A stretch of 31,321 nt of DNA from a virus. The position numbers and the translations under genes are program-made. Where the stretch lies: positions 1 through 31,321 of the IMG/VR virus record IMGVR_UViG_3300023110_000123. One strand, given 5' to 3'. Below, in pieces: positions 1-30,019 of the stretch (the stretch's first letter is position 1; the number at the start of each line of letters is the position of its first letter). The notes under the pieces are model-generated. The model saw only the letters and a program-made list of their open reading frames with translations. It ran no database searches and was not told the origin of the DNA.

Positions 1-1476
1 ACGCATACCGGGTTTAAAGTCGTAACTACCGCTTCCAGCTGGAAGCGGATCAGCAGCTCTACTACCAAGTTCAAAAGTAGTATGACCACTAGTTGCAGGA
101 GATACTGTTAGAGATCCAGTAACTCTCGCATCGGCGTCAACATCGAGTTTATATTGAGGATTATTAGCATTAGAACCAATACCAACATTGCCGCTAGATT
201 TAACACGTATAAAGTCAGTAGGACCGTAGTTAAGTTCTAAGTCACCGTTACTATTTTGTAATATATTAAAATCATATGTTGCAGAAGTGTGTCTAAGTTT
301 TATTCCAACATCCGCTGCATTTGTGATTCTTAAATTACCACCATGAACATGCAGTTTACCACTTGTTGGGGTTGCGGTACCAATACCAACATCACCACCT
401 GTAACTAATCGCATTGATTCAGTTCCGTTTGCAGTAAGTACTAACGGGTTTCCGTTTACCGCTAATGGCACACTAGCACTAACGGCATCATTATACGAAG
501 AAATTCTAGAAACAGTTGCAGCGTCAACAGTTGTTGTATTAATTGCAACATTTAAGTTTGTTCCATTCCTAACAACAAATTTATTAGACGGGGTTTCGGA
601 GTTAATGCCAACATTTCCACTAGATGTAATTGATATATGATCGTAAGAAGTGGCTGCATATCCACCAGTACCACCAGTTAAATTTGCAATAGCAACATAG
701 CCAATACTTAATGAACCATCAGATCTTCCATGAACATAACGTTCGTTGTTTGGATCTGATAAGTTATGGAAGTGCATACCACCGTAGTCATTGATACGCC
801 ACTCGCCATTGCTATTTGAGCCCACAACATGTAATAAGTTTTTAGGAGATTCAGTATTAATTCCAACTTCTCCAGCTATCATAGCCCCAAGAGCAAAACT
901 GGCATCTGCAGTATTAATTGAAGTTGACGGATCTGGTGTGTAACCATTAAAAAACTTAAATTTACCGTCTGTCGAATCACGGAACAATCCGGCGTGTTTA
1001 TCTGAGCCGTCATTATATTCACCAACAAAACCTAAATCTGGATTAACTGTTGATTTAGCACTTGCTGAGCCACCGCTTACATAGGTACCTTGTTCACTAC
1101 CAGCAATAGTAAAACTTGTACTTGTAGCACCAGTAACGGTTGCACCTGTAGTATTATATCCGGCAGGTGACATACCAGTAATAACTACTGTATATCCTAT
1201 TGCATAATTATTATCTGCAGTATATGTTTGTGTAGACCCATCACCGCTTGCACTTGTAATAGTTGCAGCACTTGGCGTGTTGAGGAAAATCATATTATCC
1301 TGAACAGCCAACTCAGTTGATGTAATGGTTATTGTATCCCCGTTTACAGTGAGGTTACCTTCAATTGTTAAATTTCCCGTAAATGTACCGTTGTGATCAT
1401 ATTGTACGGATAAATCTGTATCATCAACAGTAAGCGTATTCGCCATTTGTGATAATTCAAATGATTTTGTTGCCAT
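1..1476 (-). CDS. Tail-fibre-like protein, N-terminal part (3' end outside window)
   Basis: The frame is open from ATG at 1476 to the left edge (492 codons, no stop). It starts MATKSFELSQMANTLTVDDT, then beta repeats GTFTGNLTIEGNLTVNGDTI at about 30-50. Residues about 120-165 (PDLGFVGEYNDGSDKHAGLF and DGKFKFFNGYTPDP) form a module related to the GFFGFDD module of the neighbouring fibres. From about 205 onward it has GEVGINTESP, SGNVGINSETPSNKF, GDVGIGTATPTSGKLHVHGG and SGNVGIGSNANNPQYKLDV, the shaft repeat type also found at the end of the giant fibre. It is probably another tail fibre. The ribosome site is AAGGA. Confidence 0.87.
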   Translation of the reverse strand, partial: MATKSFELSQMANTLTVDDTDLSVQYDHNGTFTGNLTIEGNLTVNGDTITITSTELAVQDNMIFLNTPSAATITSASGDGSTQTYTADNNYAIGYTVVITGMSPAGYNTTGATVTGATSTSFTIAGSEQGTYVSGGSASAKSTVNPDLGFVGEYNDGSDKHAGLFRDSTDGKFKFFNGYTPDPSTSINTADASFALGAMIAGEVGINTESPKNLLHVVGSNSNGEWRINDYGGMHFHNLSDPNNERYVHGRSDGSLSIGYVAIANLTGGTGGYAATSYDHISITSSGNVGINSETPSNKFVVRNGTNLNVAINTTTVDAATVSRISSYNDAVSASVPLAVNGNPLVLTANGTESMRLVTGGDVGIGTATPTSGKLHVHGGNLRITNAADVGIKLRHTSATYDFNILQNSNGDLELNYGPTDFIRVKSSGNVGIGSNANNPQYKLDVDADARVTGSLTVSPATSGHTTFELGSRAADPLPAGSGSYDFKPGMR

Positions 1477-20540: not shown

Positions 20541-23500
20541 TTATGTTATACTCAATCCTGTTATACTTTGGTTTGTGTTTAATGCAATACGCACTAGTGC
20601 TACATTTCCTGTAGCATTTGTTAAGTTTTCGGTACCTAGCGTCATAGTGAACCCACCACTTAATGCTGTATTATTTGCAATAATATCTCCACCTGTTACT
20701 GCACATCCGTTGCTTCCGTTACCGCCATTGCCAGTATCTGCACCTGGTACACCAGAGCCAGCATACTGTATACCGCAGTCTAGCCAACCGTTAATTGTAC
20801 TTGCACTGTCTATTGCTGTACCTGGTGCTGCAATCCAAACACCACTAACGCCTGTTGTACTTGTAATATTAATCGTAAAGTTAGCAACAACTGTTCTGCG
20901 GAATGCAAATGTAAAATATTGCACTCCAGTATCGCCGCTTCTGTCTGGACCGGCTGGTAAAAATGTACTGTAGTTTTCTACATTATGTTCTAACACACCT
21001 AATCGTATTGTTGCTTCTTTTGTTCCTGTTACTCCAGGGTCTGCTGCTTCTGTATATAAATTGTTTGTATAAAAATTTGTTGCACCTGGTATTACAGGGT
21101 TATCTGTAGTTGCTGCACTAAAGTCAAATATACGAACACCATTATCTGTATATGTTGAACCTAAGCTGTTATTAACATCGATTGCAATTTCATTAATACC
21201 GCTTTGGTTAGCAGTATGTACTGCAACTGATTCTGATAATATTTGATAGCCACCAGAACCATTAACATTAGTTGCACGGTGTTGTAAATTTTCAATTGTT
21301 CTAACACTGCTACTGGTAATGTTAACTGTTACATCTCCAATTGCATAAGGTGTTCCATTTCCTGTGTCTGCATTTGGAATTCCACCTGTTAAGAAGGTAA
21401 CAGTTCCGTCAATATCTGAGTAAGAATAATTTTGTGTACTAATTGCACTAGACCCAGTACCTTCTAAATTTGTACCACTAGAAACTTCAAATACATTGGT
21501 TGTATTTCTATATGTTTGTCCGATAAAGTCTTCAATTGTAACTCCGCTTAGTGTCAATGAACTACCAGTGTCGTAATAAGGAACACCACTGATGTATTTG
21601 TAGTTTCCTACATTTTCTGTTAGTGTTCCGCCGGCTGTTGTTGGTGTACTTGTTAAGTTATCTACAACAAATTCTACAGTATTTGTATTTCCTGTTGTAC
21701 TATGACTTAACTGATAATCGTTTGTACCTGCTGTGAAACTTGCACCACTTTTACTAACTTGTGCTTTAAATCCTGTATATAATCCTGGATGATAGATACT
21801 ACTATTAAATGTTGTACTACTGCCTCCTGAATTTAATAAGTTATAATCTTCTTCATCTGTAACAACAAGACTTGTATATGTGCCTGTTTGATTTGTATTA
21901 CTAAATGTCACATTACCGTCGTCTACACCATTAACTAGTGCAGTAAGTGTACCAGCATCTGCATCGTATGCATATGTTGAAATAACACTAGATGATATAG
22001 TGCCACTATTAACAACACGTGTTACAGAAGAGCCTGCTGTTGTAGAACTGGTATTGTTGTTTGTAAATCCAGATGTTAACAATGGATCTGTTCCTGTACT
22101 ACTAGGTCCACTAATAGTTTTTGTGCTTAACCCATCTGGTACAGCAATATTTGGATCGTATACTTTTAATGGCAGCGTTACTAATGATGGTATTGTTGAC
22201 GGGTCTGCTGTACTATGAGAAGTCAATGTTAGTAATAAATTGTCTCTACTGGTTCCAGAACTTGTTCCTGGTCCCCATGTATGTTGTAATCTTGTACCAT
22301 TAACTCCACCAGGATCATTGTCGCTAGCAATATTGTCTACTGCAGTGCCGTCTCCCCAATCCATTGTATATGTAACACTGGCTCCACCAGTATTACTGGT
22401 ATTGTTTTGCATATATAAACTGTCGCCTTCAATCACATATAAATCGTTTCCTGTTAAATCAGTACCGCCAGTTACTACACGATAGAGTTCAAATGCGGCA
22501 ACTGCATTTGCTGTAAAGATCACAATGTAATCTTCACGTGTAGAACTTGCTTCGCTACCGGCACTGCCACTAATAGCATTGTCATTGTAAGCTCTGACTG
22601 TTACAGTAAATGGACTGTTTACGTTTGAATTATATGTATAACTAGGCGTACTATCGGTTGTACCAATAGTAGTACCACCATCTCCCCATGTAATATCGTA
22701 TTTGTTTGCATTACCATCTACATTTAAAGTAAGTGTAATAGTTGACCCAGCACCTGCCGAAGTTGGCGTACCAGTAAATGTTATTGCACGTACAAATGTA
22801 TTGTTGCGTACATTTTCTAAAGACTCGTTTAATTCGTCTAGTACATCAACAACTTTATCAGTATCAACAAATCCCAAGTAGGCACCATCTTGCCATGTGC
22901 CGTCTGTTGGTGTACCTGCTGTAGCTGATAAACTATTTTCAACCCAGTCTTTTGTTACTAAATCTTGTGCATTTGTTGGTATATATGTTGCTTCTGCTGT
23001 GATTTGACCTGTACTATCAATAGTCATTCTATTAACACCGCCAGTATAAAAATCTAACTCGTCATTATCTGCACCAGGACTGTCTTCTGCACTAATATAA
23101 GTATCTTGGTCAACATCTTTAACACCGCCTAGCGATCCCCATGCTGTACCATCATAACCTTCAAAAGTTGTATCATCGCTATTATAACGAATCATACCTT
23201 GTGCTGGTGCGCCAGGACGTTCTGCAACTGTGCCGACTGGTAGCACAAGAGATCCTGTTACATCAACTGTAATTGTTTCTGTATTACTGTCTAGTGTTTG
23301 AACATATGCTGTACTCCAATTTTGTAGTGTACTTCCTAAATCATATGTCGCATCTGTATTTGGAATAACGTTACTATTAACATCAGCGTTAAACACGACA
23401 TTATCTGTGTCATCATCACCAACATTGATTGTACCGCTAGTACCTGCTTTTAATGTTGCTATGCCGTCAACTGTTAGTGTACCATTAACTTGTAAGTTAC

Positions 23501-23891
23501 CACCAACAGTTGTATCTCCTGTCGCTCCATCAATTGTGAATTCAGCAAGGGTATCACCCATTGCAATAATACCAGTAGCACCAATTTGCATACGCTGTGT
23601 ACCATCAGTATAAAAATCTATTTCATTATTGTTGACACCTGGAGAAGTTTCTGCTATAACATATGTGTTACCATCAACATCACGAACACCGCCGAGTGAA
23701 CTCCATCCGGCGCCATTGTAGCCTTCAAAGGTTTGTTGTTGACTGTTGAAACGAATTTGACCTGTGTTTAATACAGCTGGTCTTTGTGCTGTGTTTCCAA
23801 CTGGAATTGTAAAAGCACCAGTGGTGTTTAATGTTAATGTTCCACTACTTGTGCTAATTCTATCTCGTTGATGATCAAAATTAATAGCCAT
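20541..23891 (-). CDS. Large fibre-like virion protein with PKD-like domains
   Basis: This 1116-residue protein has two copies of a module of about 90 residues (residues about 35-120 and 225-305) with the core TFEGYxGxxWxSLGGVxDVD followed by an AE-SPG-(A/V)-(D/N)-NDE-like segment. Between them lies the module NVIPNTDATYDLGSTLQNW. Residues about 375-445 (KYDITWGDGG, then FTVTVRAYN) and about 505-550 (YTMDWGDGTA) look like PKD beta-sandwiches. The rest is Ser/Thr/Asn-rich beta sequence, and the last 150 residues (FTFAFRRTVVANFTINITS, GWLDCGIQYAG) look like a folded C-terminal domain. It is probably a tail fibre or adhesin; no enzyme motif is visible. The start has only a modest ribosome site (GTGAGAG). 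Confidence 0.85.
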   Translation of the reverse strand: MAINFDHQRDRISTSSGTLTLNTTGAFTIPVGNTAQRPAVLNTGQIRFNSQQQTFEGYNGAGWSSLGGVRDVDGNTYVIAETSPGVNNNEIDFYTDGTQRMQIGATGIIAMGDTLAEFTIDGATGDTTVGGNLQVNGTLTVDGIATLKAGTSGTINVGDDDTDNVVFNADVNSNVIPNTDATYDLGSTLQNWSTAYVQTLDSNTETITVDVTGSLVLPVGTVAERPGAPAQGMIRYNSDDTTFEGYDGTAWGSLGGVKDVDQDTYISAEDSPGADNDELDFYTGGVNRMTIDSTGQITAEATYIPTNAQDLVTKDWVENSLSATAGTPTDGTWQDGAYLGFVDTDKVVDVLDELNESLENVRNNTFVRAITFTGTPTSAGAGSTITLTLNVDGNANKYDITWGDGGTTIGTTDSTPSYTYNSNVNSPFTVTVRAYNDNAISGSAGSEASSTREDYIVIFTANAVAAFELYRVVTGGTDLTGNDLYVIEGDSLYMQNNTSNTGGASVTYTMDWGDGTAVDNIASDNDPGGVNGTRLQHTWGPGTSSGTSRDNLLLTLTSHSTADPSTIPSLVTLPLKVYDPNIAVPDGLSTKTISGPSSTGTDPLLTSGFTNNNTSSTTAGSSVTRVVNSGTISSSVISTYAYDADAGTLTALVNGVDDGNVTFSNTNQTGTYTSLVVTDEEDYNLLNSGGSSTTFNSSIYHPGLYTGFKAQVSKSGASFTAGTNDYQLSHSTTGNTNTVEFVVDNLTSTPTTAGGTLTENVGNYKYISGVPYYDTGSSLTLSGVTIEDFIGQTYRNTTNVFEVSSGTNLEGTGSSAISTQNYSYSDIDGTVTFLTGGIPNADTGNGTPYAIGDVTVNITSSSVRTIENLQHRATNVNGSGGYQILSESVAVHTANQSGINEIAIDVNNSLGSTYTDNGVRIFDFSAATTDNPVIPGATNFYTNNLYTEAADPGVTGTKEATIRLGVLEHNVENYSTFLPAGPDRSGDTGVQYFTFAFRRTVVANFTINITSTTGVSGVWIAAPGTAIDSASTINGWLDCGIQYAGSGVPGADTGNGGNGSNGCAVTGGDIIANNTALSGGFTMTLGTENLTNATGNVALVRIALNTNQSITGLSIT

Positions 23892-23916: not shown

Positions 23917-23924
23917 TATTTATG
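23917..23924 (-). promoter_or_regulatory. T4-type late promoter CATAAATA
   Basis: The minus strand carries CATAAATA, 25 bases before the start at 23891. The TAA within it is the heme oxygenase stop codon. It starts the unit of the two large fibre genes. Confidence 0.75.
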
Positions 23925-24471
23925 CAGTAACACTGATTGATAATTTCTCTAAATCTTGGAATTGACGTATAGCAAATTGAAAACATATACCAGCTTCGGT
24001 TGCCATTTCGTCTGTTGTTCTTGATCGAATTTCATTTTTAAGTAGCTCTACATCACCATCAAAAACATACATACGCCCATTACCAGGAACACGGTTTTTA
24101 ATAATTTGACCACCACTCAAATCTCCCATATGATGCACATATATATGCGCAAATATATCATCTTTATTTGTTAATGAATTTATATGATCAATATAATCCA
24201 ATGTACTCCCAAATGTCATTGGCTCAAACTTGTTTTTCCAAAGCTCTTTAAAGTCAGCATTAATGTGCTTTACTCTCAATGCACTTTCTATACCATCAAA
24301 CAGATTGTTTTCCATGGCTACACGTTCAAGTTCAGTGTACTTTAAACTTTGATTCCATAAAAAAGTTGCATATAGTGCATCACTAATATTACCACCAAGA
24401 AGTGTTTTTACAAAGCCACATCTCTCTGCAGCCTTGTGGTGCTCCATAGTTAATTCTTTTATGTTGCTCAT
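23920..24471 (-). CDS. ho1: Heme oxygenase
   Basis: This 183-residue protein matches the heme oxygenase family: the proximal heme-ligand His in MEHHKAAERCGFV (His12 by the H-x-x-A-E pattern) and the distal helix HIYVHHMGDLSGGQI with the diagnostic GDLSGGQ. The family opens heme with O2 and reductant (ferredoxin in cyanobacteria) to biliverdin, CO and iron. It is shorter than typical cyanobacterial HO1 (about 240 residues) but retains the C-terminal helical part (EMATEAGICFQFAIRQF). The ATG lies three bases after the protease stop with only a weak ribosome site, so translation probably depends on coupling. Phage copies are known from marine cyanophages as auxiliary metabolic genes. The position inside a virion gene block is odd. 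Confidence 0.93.
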   Translation of the reverse strand: MSNIKELTMEHHKAAERCGFVKTLLGGNISDALYATFLWNQSLKYTELERVAMENNLFDGIESALRVKHINADFKELWKNKFEPMTFGSTLDYIDHINSLTNKDDIFAHIYVHHMGDLSGGQIIKNRVPGNGRMYVFDGDVELLKNEIRSRTTDEMATEAGICFQFAIRQFQDLEKLSISVTA

Positions 24472-24474
24472 TAA

Positions 24475-27162
24475 TTAAACACGTTTTCTTCTGCGTATTC
24501 TTCTGCGTGGGTATGCTACACCTGACCTCGGACGACCTCTATGCTGTTTTGGCCATCTAGGTCTATTTTCATTTGTAGAGCTTGGCATCCATAATATTAA
24601 GTTTGCAGAACCTTCTAAACTATTAGCAAAGTCAAATGTTCCTGGAGGATCATCATATATTTGATCCGGTTTGCTGATAACTCGTAACATTTCTCTAGCT
24701 TGTCTTTGTGTCATGTCTGGATATTCTTCAAGCATACATGCAAGTATACCACAAACCTGTGGGCCACTCATACTAGTACCACTTACTTTAGCATAGTAGT
24801 TACCGCCGCCTCGATCTGCTTTAGATCTACTTGATAAAGATGGCATCGAACTTTGAATATAATGTCCTGCTGCATATATGTCAACATTTTCTCCAAAATT
24901 ACTAAAATAAACTCTTTGCTCTTTATCATTCAAATGTGTATTATCTAATGCGCCAACACAAATAACAGCACTGTCTGTACCATTACCTGCACCCGCAGGT
25001 GATTGTGGTCTATGATAGTAAGAATTACTTCCGCCAGTTGTTGTTATATAGTTATTATAATATGGGTGATCTGAGCTATACATTGGCACACGACCGTTGC
25101 CTGCACTAGCTACTACAATAACGCCGTCTGCTATTGCATCAACAATATCTGCATCAGTAGAAAGGTTAGTAGCAGTGTGTCTACCACCAGTGTTATAACC
25201 AAAACTTTGTAATTCAGCATTTGTAAATGTAGTTCCTCCGCCTGAAATAGTTTTGGCTCCATTTTGTTCCCAATTTATTTCATATTCATTAGGTGAATTT
25301 TCGAAAAATGTTAATTCCCAACGCATATTTGGCGATTCAGGAGTATTAATATAATAACGATCATGACCTTCCCATACAACCCTATATTCTCTATTAGGAG
25401 TAATTCCTGAAACTCCGTGCCAGATACTATAACCTCGTCTATCTCTGGCGCCTATCATAATTTTAGGTAACAGCGGGTTGGATGCAGACACGTTATATGT
25501 ACTAGAACCACTACCAAATGTAACATAGCTGTTAGTTCCAACATGTATTGTATTGTATGTAACACCTAAATACTGAATGTCAAATGGTAAATTTAATGTC
25601 CAATATCCGTCATCATTATTACCTGATGTTGGTGAACTGTCTGCGGTTAATCCTGTTATGTTAATTGCTGTGTGAGGAAGAGTTATTACTGAACCAGATG
25701 CGTTAGGATCTGCTGCTGGATTATCTTCTGTAAATTCTTCAAACTCATCGTTTCCTAAATCTGCATTAAAATCGCTAAAGAACTGTCCTCGCTCACCTGT
25801 TGTAACAGTCCATGCAACATCAAATGTAAATTCATCACCGTCTGCAGGATATGTTTCTACAATATATCTAATTGTAACGTTACCTGTTGGACCAAAGAAA
25901 CTAAATCCAAAACCACCAGTTAGTTCAAAATCAATCTCTGGACCTCTAACTGTTGTAGCAATACTTGCACCGTTGTTAACAATACGTCTAATAATCATAT
26001 AACTATCTTCACTGTTACAACTTGCAACAATTCTACTATTCTGTCTAACATCACATGGTGTTAGTACTGTAATCTCATAGTTGTCTGCTGGATCAGTTTG
26101 CGTAAAGCTAAATGTTTGGTTTACAATTTTATCCCATTCGTCTGGCCATGCTACCATTCTATCAGTAACACTGGTTGCAGTACCTGTAGTTGTAAATCTA
26201 TTTTTACTATTTTCTGGATCACCTACTCTAGCTACAACTTGGCTTGTAGTGCTGTATGCACCGTAAAATCCATTATACTCAGTATCTTGAGTACCACCAG
26301 GTGTATGTGTTGTACCATCAAATGTAATAGATGCAATGCTAGATGCTGAAGTAGCACTACGACTATAACCCCAACTGTTGTTTACGATAGTTGGATTTTT
26401 ATATCCAGTATCAGGATTAATCGGCTTATTATTATGAAATTCTCTTATGTAGTCAAATGCTAGAGAAGGAGAAATACTGTTGTTTGCATCATTGCCGCTA
26501 AAATTTAATGCAAAGAAATAAATGTTTGCATCCTTTGCCCAACCTTCTTCACGTCCTGCAACTGTTCCTGCACAGTGAATATTATGAAAGTTACTACTGT
26601 CACCACGCTGGGCATATGTTCTTCCAACGTGTGAACTATCACCAACTGCAGAGGCATGTTGCCACCAGTTGTAATCTACAACTCTGCTAACACCATTACC
26701 ATCTAAAAATTCTCTATGATTTGGTTCCCATGCTTGGTCATCTAAGATTACAACGTCAACATTTCTTCCTGTGTATTGATAGTTAATTGTACCATTGATA
26801 GTATCAGATGCGCTATCAAAATTGTTATTGTTTTCCCCAGCAATGTGTCTCCATAATCCCCATTGGTTATGGTTTGCATTTAAACTTGAACTTCTTGAAA
26901 ACTGTCCTGTTTGTGTAAACATTCTTTCCGGTGGACTATCATCTACTATTTCTACAAATTGTACTCTTGCATCGTTTACAACTTCTAAGGCTTCTTGTGG
27001 TGTTAACATATAATGTGTAACTCGACTTTTAGGTTTTCTCAATTCAACATCTACTGCTCTGTCTGGAATAGTAACAGAGCCGCCGTCTGTTTCCATATCG
27101 TTATAAAAGTCGTCTAAGTCTTCGTAGTTGTGTAATACAACAGCATATTTGTGTAAGTTCAT
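24475..27162 (-). CDS. Subtilisin-like (S8) serine protease with large insertion, probable virion protein
   Basis: This 895-residue protein has the complete subtilase signature: Asp in VDVVILDDQAWEP near residue 141, His in HNIHCAGTVAG near 196, the oxyanion Asn in GVIVVASAGNG near 690, and the nucleophile Ser in KVSGTSMSGPQV near 798. Residues 1-75 could be an I9-like propeptide. In subtilisin the strand matching TIVNNSWGYS (about 260) and the oxyanion Asn are some 30 residues apart; here about 400 residues of beta-rich sequence intervene (DGYWTLNLPFDIQYLG, RVVWEGHDRYY), probably one or more inserted beta-sandwich domains. The C-terminus is strongly basic (PRRRIRRRKRV). No signal peptide is visible. 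Position among fibre genes suggests a virion-borne or assembly protease; targets are unknown. Confidence 0.9.
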   Translation of the reverse strand: MNLHKYAVVLHNYEDLDDFYNDMETDGGSVTIPDRAVDVELRKPKSRVTHYMLTPQEALEVVNDARVQFVEIVDDSPPERMFTQTGQFSRSSSLNANHNQWGLWRHIAGENNNNFDSASDTINGTINYQYTGRNVDVVILDDQAWEPNHREFLDGNGVSRVVDYNWWQHASAVGDSSHVGRTYAQRGDSSNFHNIHCAGTVAGREEGWAKDANIYFFALNFSGNDANNSISPSLAFDYIREFHNNKPINPDTGYKNPTIVNNSWGYSRSATSASSIASITFDGTTHTPGGTQDTEYNGFYGAYSTTSQVVARVGDPENSKNRFTTTGTATSVTDRMVAWPDEWDKIVNQTFSFTQTDPADNYEITVLTPCDVRQNSRIVASCNSEDSYMIIRRIVNNGASIATTVRGPEIDFELTGGFGFSFFGPTGNVTIRYIVETYPADGDEFTFDVAWTVTTGERGQFFSDFNADLGNDEFEEFTEDNPAADPNASGSVITLPHTAINITGLTADSSPTSGNNDDGYWTLNLPFDIQYLGVTYNTIHVGTNSYVTFGSGSSTYNVSASNPLLPKIMIGARDRRGYSIWHGVSGITPNREYRVVWEGHDRYYINTPESPNMRWELTFFENSPNEYEINWEQNGAKTISGGGTTFTNAELQSFGYNTGGRHTATNLSTDADIVDAIADGVIVVASAGNGRVPMYSSDHPYYNNYITTTGGSNSYYHRPQSPAGAGNGTDSAVICVGALDNTHLNDKEQRVYFSNFGENVDIYAAGHYIQSSMPSLSSRSKADRGGGNYYAKVSGTSMSGPQVCGILACMLEEYPDMTQRQAREMLRVISKPDQIYDDPPGTFDFANSLEGSANLILWMPSSTNENRPRWPKQHRGRPRSGVAYPRRRIRRRKRV

Positions 27163-27163
27163 T

Positions 27164-27709
27164 TTATGTTTCCAATGGTAAAATTAATAGTGTTGTTGTT
27201 ATTGTATTTGTGCTGCCTGATTTGTTAGTTACTGCCAAATAAATTGTATCTGTTACAGGATTTTCATCGTTCCAGCCAACACTTGACGGTGTAAATTTAA
27301 CAGTAGTTGCACCAGTTGTAATAATTTCAGCGTGTACGCCAGCATCTGGATCTGGGTCAACACCTTCAGAACGTCCGCTGTCGTTTGTTCTTGCTGCAGC
27401 ACTGCTATAAACTCTAACCCATGCTGCTTGGTCTACTTCAATTGATAACACACTGTATGCTTTTGCTGCACTTGTGATATCAACATCGTCCGATGCTGCA
27501 TTTGCAATACTAGCAGTTGTACCGCTTACAGTTGTACGTGGGGCTGTGCCTCCACCACCACCGCCAGAACCTGTAACTTCGTTACCGCCCGCAGTGGCGC
27601 CATCTCCTACATACACTTTCTTAGTGTCTGTTGTGTAGATTAATTCGCCTTCAGCAGGAGTAATTCCTGATCTGTCTGCGTCTACACCTCTTCTTAATAA
27701 TAAAGCCAT
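27164..27709 (-). CDS. Virion protein with tropism-determinant-like N-terminus
   Basis: I start this 181-residue protein at MALLLRRGVDADRSG because a ribosome site (TTTGGAGA) precedes that ATG; the longer open frame to 27757 would overlap the preceding gene and its late promoter. Residues 1-40 (LLRRGVDADRS, ITPAEGELIYTTDTKKVYVG, DGATAGG) match the pattern of the Mtd N-terminal domain found at the base of many phage tail fibres. A run of six Gly near residue 50 links to a beta-rich C-terminal domain ending TITTTLLILPLET. It probably attaches to or forms part of a fibre. There is no C-type lectin variable domain, so it is not a tropism determinant in the diversity-generating sense. The protease gene starts one base after its stop. 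Confidence 0.8.
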   Translation of the reverse strand: MALLLRRGVDADRSGITPAEGELIYTTDTKKVYVGDGATAGGNEVTGSGGGGGGTAPRTTVSGTTASIANAASDDVDITSAAKAYSVLSIEVDQAAWVRVYSSAAARTNDSGRSEGVDPDPDAGVHAEIITTGATTVKFTPSSVGWNDENPVTDTIYLAVTNKSGSTNTITTTLLILPLET

Positions 27710-27734: not shown

Positions 27735-27742
27735 TATTTATA
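27735..27742 (-). promoter_or_regulatory. T4-type late promoter TATAAATA (exact consensus)
   Basis: The minus strand carries the exact T4 late octamer, 25 bases before the ATG at 27709. The TAA of the octamer is at the same time the stop codon of the preceding gene. Confidence 0.82.
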
Positions 27743-28343
27743 TTGATCCCATATCAATCGTTAGTGCATTAGGTGCAGCATATGATCCCATGTCAATATC
27801 TGATCCGAGAGATAATAGATATCCGGTTGCACTTGTGTGGTAGTTTGTATTATAATAACCAAAGTCAAAAGAACTAATACCAGAAGTGCTGCCAGTACCA
27901 TTTAAATTAACCCATTCTCTTGTAGCAAGAGTTCCGTCTTCGTCTGGTAAAATTACATTTCTGTCTGCAGTTGCAGCAAGTGCTTGTAATTTAATTTCGT
28001 AATCATCTGGTACAGTACCTTCAAAAATTAACTTAGTTTGTTGTTTAATCCAAATGTTTCCTGTAGGATATAATGCAATGTCAGCACCGCTATGTATGTC
28101 TAGATCATCACCACTAACACTGTTAACTTTACTTGTAAAAACTTCACGCCATGATTTTGTAGATGTACCTATGTCGTAAGTAGCATTAACATCTGGAACA
28201 ATATTGCTAGTAATGTCTGCTGTTAAACTAATACTATCAGTGTCAGCATCACCTAGTATCACATTACCATTTGCTGTAACATTTCCTGAGAGTGTAATAT
28301 TACCAGTAACATCCAAATCTTGTTTAAATTTTGTCGAACTCAT
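27738..28343 (-). CDS. Small fibre-like virion protein
   Basis: This 201-residue protein starts with short beta-repeat sequence (DLDVTGNITLSGNVTANGNV) typical of phage fibre shafts. It then carries the module NIVPDVNATYDIGTSTKSW at about residues 48-66, which recurs in the larger fibre proteins of this window. A stretch near residues 105-140 (FEGTVPDDYEIKLQALAA, then VILPDEDGTLAT) resembles a common fibre segment. There is no signal peptide or membrane segment. It is probably a minor virion or fibre protein; no enzymatic motif is visible. The ribosome site is GGAG seven bases before ATG. Its TAA stop lies inside the late promoter of the next gene. Confidence 0.8.
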   Translation of the reverse strand: MSSTKFKQDLDVTGNITLSGNVTANGNVILGDADTDSISLTADITSNIVPDVNATYDIGTSTKSWREVFTSKVNSVSGDDLDIHSGADIALYPTGNIWIKQQTKLIFEGTVPDDYEIKLQALAATADRNVILPDEDGTLATREWVNLNGTGSTSGISSFDFGYYNTNYHTSATGYLLSLGSDIDMGSYAAPNALTIDMGSI

Positions 28344-28364: not shown

Positions 28365-28372
28365 TATTTATC
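28365..28372 (-). promoter_or_regulatory. T4-type late promoter GATAAATA
   Basis: The minus strand reads GATAAATA, one base from the T4 late consensus TATAAATA, 21 bases before the start codon at 28343. It lies just after the terminator of the noncoding RNA and would start the first fibre-block transcript. In T4 such octamers are recognised by gp55 with the gp33/gp45 co-activators; those genes are not in the window. Confidence 0.75.
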
Positions 28373-28858: not shown

Positions 28859-30019
28859 TTACTGGAATGATAGGTTGTTTGTTGTAACAGCAATTTTACT
28901 TAGGTAATCTGCTGCGTTACCTAGCGATGATGCTTGGTTGCTTAGTTCAACATAACCATAACGTGTCATGAAGCTAACAACTGGCTCGAATGTCGCTGGG
29001 TCTAGTACTGTACCGCTTGACATTAGTGGGATGTATGGGCAATAGAACGCTGCTGCGTCTGTTTCTGTTGAACCCTTGTAACCTACTAGGATGTCGTCGT
29101 TTGCTGCGTACTGGTTTACATAAACACGCATAGTACCGTTTAGTGTACCTACGAATTTTGTGTTTGTTGGTGCCTCGAAAGGACCTTCAGTTGTACGTGC
29201 AAATGCGCTTGTTGTTGCTGACTGTAGAACAGTTAGAACGTCTGGGCTTACAACTGCCCAGTTACCTGCGCCACGGCGTGTACGTGCTGCAATTGTGTTT
29301 GCATTTTTGTTGATTAGAACTGCTAGTGCTGCATGTTCGTCACCAACGAAAGTAGCTGTACCACTTACACCTGCTTGGTTGTATGTGTCAGCTGCTGCGC
29401 CTGCTAGACTTGTTAGAGATGCAATGATCTCTTGGTCGATTTCAGCAGTAATTTCTTGTGCAAGTGCTTGCATAATTTCTGCTTCGACGTCTAGGCCGTG
29501 CATTGAGTTAGCGTCTTGCGCTGCTTCAAATGTCCAACGTGCTGATAGCTTACGTGTTTTAGCTTCAACAGTTTGCTTTAGGACTTGAATACTCATTTTC
29601 TTACCTGCTTCACCTTCTAGTGTTGCAGTTGCATCCGCTCTGTTTGTTGTTGCGTTACCTGAGTAACCTGTTGCAATTGCGAATGGGCTTAGTGCTTCAT
29701 CACCTGCAGTTGCGCTGTCAAATGTTTCAGCGTAACGTACACGTAGTGTGTGAATCTGACCAACTGGGCCTGTCATAGGCTGTACACCAACGATCTCGTT
29801 AGCAATAACAGTTGGCATTACACGGCGAATAACTGGAAGAATCACTTTGTTAAGTGTTGCAACGTTGCCTGCTTGAGTTGCACCAGCACTTGCACTTTCT
29901 GACAAGTAACGCTTAGTGTTTTCAAGTGTTGTTTCCATCACTTTTTTCTTTGTTCCAGTTAGACCGTCTGTTAGGGCTGTTTTAGTTTCTGCCCAATTTT
30001 CCATTAGGTTGTCTGCCAT
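28859..30019 (-). CDS. gp23: gp23-like major capsid protein
   Basis: This 386-residue protein is the T4-type major head protein (HK97 fold in the family). The recognisable parts are the N-terminal MADNLMENWAE segment, a prepro region of about 41 residues, the capsid-like stretch NKVILPVIRRVMPTVIANEI followed by VGVQPMTGPVGQ at about residues 57-88, and the end MTRYGYVELSNQASSLGNAA. A gp21-type processing site is visible as YLSE at residues 38-41 followed by Ser-Ala-Ser-Ala; T4 gp23 is cut after a Glu at residue 65. The protein is clearly shorter than T4 gp23 (521 residues), so insertions of the T4 version seem absent. The ribosome site is AAGGAGA. A strong terminator follows the stop. Confidence 0.95.
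   Translation of the reverse strand: MADNLMENWAETKTALTDGLTGTKKKVMETTLENTKRYLSESASAGATQAGNVATLNKVILPVIRRVMPTVIANEIVGVQPMTGPVGQIHTLRVRYAETFDSATAGDEALSPFAIATGYSGNATTNRADATATLEGEAGKKMSIQVLKQTVEAKTRKLSARWTFEAAQDANSMHGLDVEAEIMQALAQEITAEIDQEIIASLTSLAGAAADTYNQAGVSGTATFVGDEHAALAVLINKNANTIAARTRRGAGNWAVVSPDVLTVLQSATTSAFARTTEGPFEAPTNTKFVGTLNGTMRVYVNQYAANDDILVGYKGSTETDAAAFYCPYIPLMSSGTVLDPATFEPVVSFMTRYGYVELSNQASSLGNAADYLSKIAVTTNNLSFQ

Follow-up and report, generated by a model that had tools for sequence, protein, structure and literature searches.

Compact heme oxygenases (HOs) are encoded by pelagimyophages and by phage CB_2, and the breakdown of heme into biliverdin, Fe and CO has been shown for the CB_2 enzyme (PMC11480375). 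What a heme oxygenase offers to phages whose hosts may not be photosynthetic is an open question (PMC11480375). A ferredoxin-dependent bilin reductase (FDBR) is present in all four isolate genomes with an HO that we checked, and in three of them (P-SSM2, P-HM2 and P-RSM6) it is located far from HO. The two genes are 162 kb apart in P-SSM2. Small genes flank its HO on one side and an HNH endonuclease on the other; tail fibres come after the endonuclease, and a subtilase is located about 7 kb further on.

We analyzed a stretch of 31,321 nucleotides (the window), which is a fragment of a virus genome. The source phage belongs to the T4 superfamily and its closest capsid relatives are jumbo phages, the major capsid protein gp23 sharing 70% identity with its counterpart in Pseudomonas jumbo phage PA5oct. 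A second contig, 99.8-99.9% identical to the window across a 15.5-kb overlap, adds about 13.8 kb and brings the sequence of this phage to about 45 kb in total. It encodes an S77 prohead protease, a T4 portal, a gp46/gp47-type SbcCD pair and a gp55-like late sigma factor. No relative was found when the genome was to be extended with the tail protein at window positions 1-1476, and the protein at the far end of sister-lineage contig G045 retrieved no further contig. Most of the phage genome is probably unseen, because contigs of its relatives reach 190-360 kb. G045 (L418-L420) itself carries, at about 21000-45000, a run of about 20 genes after the baseplate genes; radical-SAM, glycosyltransferase and sugar-nucleotide enzymes can be read there by eye, possibly a virion or surface sugar cluster. 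The HO gene lies on the strand of nearly all large ORFs in the window, among the following genes:

20541-23891, minus strand: virion structural/tail protein, 1116 aa, downstream neighbour of HO (PHROG head/baseplate families)
23920-24471, minus strand: heme oxygenase, 183 aa (PF01126, E 2.8e-17; residues; predicted fold)
24475-27162, minus strand: subtilisin-like (S8) protease, 895 aa (PF00082, E 5.3e-23)
27164-27709, minus strand: tail-region gene with an Mtd N-terminal domain, 181 aa from its ATG (PF18454, E 4.8e-10)
27738-28343, minus strand: tail-fibre-like protein, 201 aa (weak PHROG tail fibre matches)
28859-30019, minus strand: major capsid protein gp23 (PF07068, E 2.5e-103)

The first-pass annotation had read the product of 23920-24471 as a heme oxygenase of 183 residues, and this identification holds. 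The protein scores 63.7 bits against the Pfam Heme_oxygenase family, whose curated cut-off is 23 bits, and matches 24 solved heme-oxygenase sequences; the gene is therefore not a chance ORF. Its heme-pocket residues are intact (H12, Y111 and G116-D117-L-S-G120-G121-Q), and both the proximal His12, the heme ligand, and the distal G116-D-L-S-G-G-Q motif are invariant in every aligned phage homologue. Arg136 of human HO-1 is replaced by His113, at a position that varies in the relatives too. An AlphaFold2 model, built from an alignment without three rows from the annotated phage collection, has a pLDDT of 94.7 and a pTM of 0.90. It predicts the all-helical HO fold, which Foldseek matches along the whole chain to HmuO and to the human, rat and Synechocystis heme oxygenases with a probability of 1.00; VIA-align superposes it on rat HO-1 with a Z-score of 23.1 and an rmsd of 2.1 Å over 180 aligned residues. 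The protein is a genuine heme oxygenase and, judged by sequence and model, probably an active cytoplasmic enzyme. It had also been described as compact, which is right relative to bacterial enzymes (median 236 aa), while among phage HOs (median 188 aa) a length of 183 aa is the norm; compactness was thus rejected as a special trait of this protein.

The gene resides in a virion block of capsid, tail and baseplate genes, as first annotated. It starts 3 nt past the stop codon of the subtilase gene, with which it forms one operon. The spacing to a protease noted earlier is therefore correct; the protease is of the tail-region S8 subtilisin type and not a prohead maturation enzyme (Peptidase_S77), its relatives being tail-region proteins of cyanomyophages annotated as subtilisin-like serine proteases. 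We rejected a coupling of HO to a virion maturation protease, as the gene for the S77 prohead protease is another one, located just beyond the window. The Mtd-like gene is the first of the operon and would encode 197 aa if translation started at the TTG at 27757.

The placement of HO between tail genes and its shared late transcription could suggest that the protein is packaged in the virion and has a role during entry, such as heme-linked adsorption. This is very improbable: the model spans the full HO domain with no extra structural domain fused to it, and all catalytic residues are kept. The gene moreover is found in several different genomic surroundings, as a structural component would not be, and is absent from most of the capsid relatives searched. 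Beyond gene position, we found nothing in favor of the virion-borne heme protein or heme-uptake-linked entry proposed in the first-pass annotation.

The late promoter consensus of T4 and cyanophages is NATAAATA (PMC2984593). Three promoters of this type are relevant to the HO region:

27735-27742, minus strand: late promoter TATAAATA, 33 nt upstream of the ATG of the Mtd-like gene, conserved in L176
23917-23924, minus strand: late promoter CATAAATA, 33 nt ahead of the ATG at 23891 and overlapping the stop codon of HO
28365-28372: late promoter GATAAATA, upstream of the 201-aa tail-fibre-like gene

The exact TATAAATA occurs once in the window and heads the operon formed by the Mtd-like gene, the subtilase and HO. 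The CATAAATA promoter serves the 1116-aa virion gene and is kept in L176 and L178, where the promoter arrangement is the same as in the window; neither HO nor the subtilase has a late promoter of its own. At the junction of subtilase and virion gene, this promoter is absent from the HO-less relatives L181, L182 and L184. The window phage and its relatives have 29 NATAAATA sites, of which 23 are found in the 70 nt preceding an ORF start, against 0.7 expected; the contigs behind this count overlap, so that independent events are fewer, and the window alone accounts for four. By plain count, NATAAATA-like sites are not enriched in the window; the departure from randomness lies solely in where they stand with respect to genes. 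With NATAAATA promoters on both sides of the gene and a gp55-like late sigma factor encoded by the phage itself, late co-transcription of HO with the structural genes, as anticipated in the first-pass annotation, is well supported by these sequence signals. A sigma-70-like site (TTGACA-17-TATATT, 24884-24856) inside the subtilase is at most a possible early promoter and was not accepted as one: it is kept in L176, absent from L178, and such sites occur at chance number.

IMG/VR searches returned 162 loci with a compact HO. Of these, 134 have 1 kb or more of sequence downstream of HO, and 129 of the 134 carry an FDBR within 2.5 kb on that side, usually overlapping or abutting it; the loci were not dereplicated, and these counts are of contigs rather than independent lineages. 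The five loci with no adjoining FDBR are L003, L176 and L095, of the window clade, and the pelagimyophage-like L073 and L074. In the latter two, HO (L073:1723-2289 and L074:774-1340) lies directly before neck genes and lacks the FDBR that Pelagibacter phage Mosig EXVC030M has there, apparently a second, independent loss of the reductase neighbour.

A ClpS adaptor gene lies just upstream of HO in 73 loci, usually preceded by an Hsp20-like gene; Pfam confirmed ClpS for L104 and L128, and Hsp20 for L104. The resulting hsp20-clpS-hemO-bilin reductase cassette of large phages, often found after an IMPDH-like gene, is exemplified by L104:9177-11234, L128, L102, G007 (L428) and G018 (L429), and links bilin synthesis to a small heat-shock protein and a protease adaptor. 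A literature search for a link between ClpS and HO in phages found nothing relevant, and the library searched yielded no publication describing the cassette. G007 is a 357-kb contig whose capsid protein is 77% identical to that of the window, with the HO cassette about 220 kb from the capsid gene. In the 192-kb contig G023, whose capsid protein is 80% identical, a row of genes at L427:2775-5164 includes ClpS, with neither HO nor reductase, beside genes that by eye resemble ClpX, IF3 and bS21.

In a maximum-likelihood tree, the compact phage HOs (48 rows) are separated from bacterial and cyanophage HOs with 100/100 support. The phylogenetic comparison advised in the first-pass annotation thus places the window HO in a compact phage clade, and a recent transfer from a host or cyanobacterium is unsupported by the tree, the best bacterial matches being just 25-36% identical. 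The window clade (window, L094 and L095) is monophyletic (100/100) on a long stem branch of 0.64 changes per site, inside a 17-row group (100/96) in whose other members a reductase adjoins HO. All members of the window clade have HO behind the subtilase, a placement kept in three diverged lineages; in L181, L182 and L184, which lack HO, the virion gene follows about 12 nt after the subtilase. Because the window lineage is nested in a family of HO-reductase pairs yet lacks that neighbour, the phylogeny and gene order show that a cassette-type HO was moved alone into the virion block by an ancestor of this lineage.

Such a moron-like insertion between the subtilase and the next gene, in a gene that diverges faster than its neighbours, might be a hitchhiker of little function, tolerated as the surrounding virion genes keep their promoters. 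We consider this highly unlikely, as the NG86 dN/dS of HO is 0.23-0.27 and the heme-pocket residues are fully kept across the three diverged lineages; these values indicate purifying selection. Relative to L176, HO has an NG86 dS of 1.04 with a dN/dS of 0.27, compared to a dS of 0.17-0.38 for most neighbours, and DNA identity is 60-79% in the middle of HO versus mostly 83-99% in its flanks. An allele exchange has probably occurred at HO. The 201-aa gene and part of the subtilase also look mosaic; for the latter (window 24900-25300), identity to L176 is 78-79% at 25101-25300 and mostly over 90% further out.

We performed a search for bilin reductases with PF05996, which matched nothing in the window and its extending contig (about 45 kb of partial genome) or in the overlapping sister-lineage contigs (about 82 kb of partial genome). 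No bilin reductase was seen downstream of HO in the window or in the clade contigs, and the 16 contigs of capsid relatives contain neither HO nor bilin reductase. The first-pass annotation had taken an absence of pcyA and pebS as favoring an iron role; this absence applies to the partial sequence, own and sister, just described. It had also argued that late expression speaks against bilin synthesis, which the relatives do not bear out: 129 of the 134 loci have a reductase neighbour, the Mosig pair lies at neck genes, and, as the P-SSM2 HO is beside tail fibres with its reductase elsewhere, a position beside tail genes is no argument against bilin synthesis.

The best overall explanation, to which we assign a probability of about 0.55, is a relocated, active and late-expressed auxiliary HO that probably feeds a bilin reductase encoded elsewhere. 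The gene is descended from the compact family of hemO-bilin reductase cassettes and would serve as an auxiliary metabolic gene; an ancestor inserted it, with no reductase, behind the tail subtilase and ahead of a virion gene, and it is under purifying selection with its catalytic residues kept. It ends an operon that has a T4-type late promoter, and late in infection the enzyme would use O2 and host reductant to turn heme into biliverdin IXalpha, Fe2+ and CO. The biliverdin may then supply a bilin reductase whose gene lies at a distance in the phage genome or belongs to the host. By analogy with P-SSM2, this end use has slightly better than even odds; counted against it are the failure to find a reductase in the partial own and sister sequences and in the capsid-relative contigs and, as regards activity, His113 in place of Arg136, although that position varies in relatives.

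It is also possible, if more doubtful, that bilin synthesis was lost and that HO was kept for late iron release from host heme, for heme removal or for CO. No FDBR, clpS or ferredoxin gene is present in what is known of the window and sister lineages, the stem of the clade is long, L073 and L074 are two more HO loci with no adjoining FDBR, and a role in iron supply has been put forward for such phages (PMC11480375). However, the absence of FDBR is drawn from a partial genome, the isolate genomes with HO all have one, and no iron-related gene is seen near HO. The bolder version, in which a large T4-superfamily phage lineage uncoupled HO from bilins and gains a late iron, CO or heme-removal benefit during particle assembly, the gene no longer being a pigment gene, seems somewhat unlikely. 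The preferred reading, with biliverdin passed to a distant or host reductase, would make the locus one more split pigment pathway if the reductase is encoded elsewhere; if the whole genome lacks one, heme breakdown itself (iron, CO or heme removal) must be the selected function. The window lineage thus offers a natural separation, with a selected HO, its usual reductase neighbour missing and clear late-promoter control.

The window HO shares its fold (Z 21-23, rmsd 2.1-2.3 Å) and catalytic motif with the canonical heme oxygenases, human and rat HO-1, HmuO and Synechocystis HO-1, but is about 30-50 residues shorter and 22-26% identical to them. As in cyanophages P-SSM2, P-HM2 and P-RSM6 (ho1, with pebS/pcyA elsewhere), it stands apart from a reductase, and the P-SSM2 gene is similarly beside tail-fibre genes, about 7 kb from a subtilase; the cyanophage HOs, however, are longer, at about 230 aa, and cluster with the picocyanobacterial enzymes, apart from the compact phage clade in which the window HO falls. 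The hsp20-clpS-hemO-FDBR cassettes (L104, L128, G007 and G018) include its closest relatives in the tree, although clpS and FDBR are both missing from the known sequence of the window lineage. The hemO-pcyX/pcyA(-alaS) cassettes of pelagimyophages and CB_2 (PMC11480375) hold members of the same compact family with the same catalytic core. The Mosig HO is 42% identical to that of the window, and its HO-reductase pair abuts neck genes just as the window HO adjoins virion genes. Compared to the Mosig and CB_2-type cassettes, the window locus differs by having no adjoining reductase, a tail subtilase as neighbour and a PA5oct/jumbo-type capsid (70%). The window HO comes from a phage gene family that is already known (PMC11480375) and was relocated, rather than being a new kind of system.
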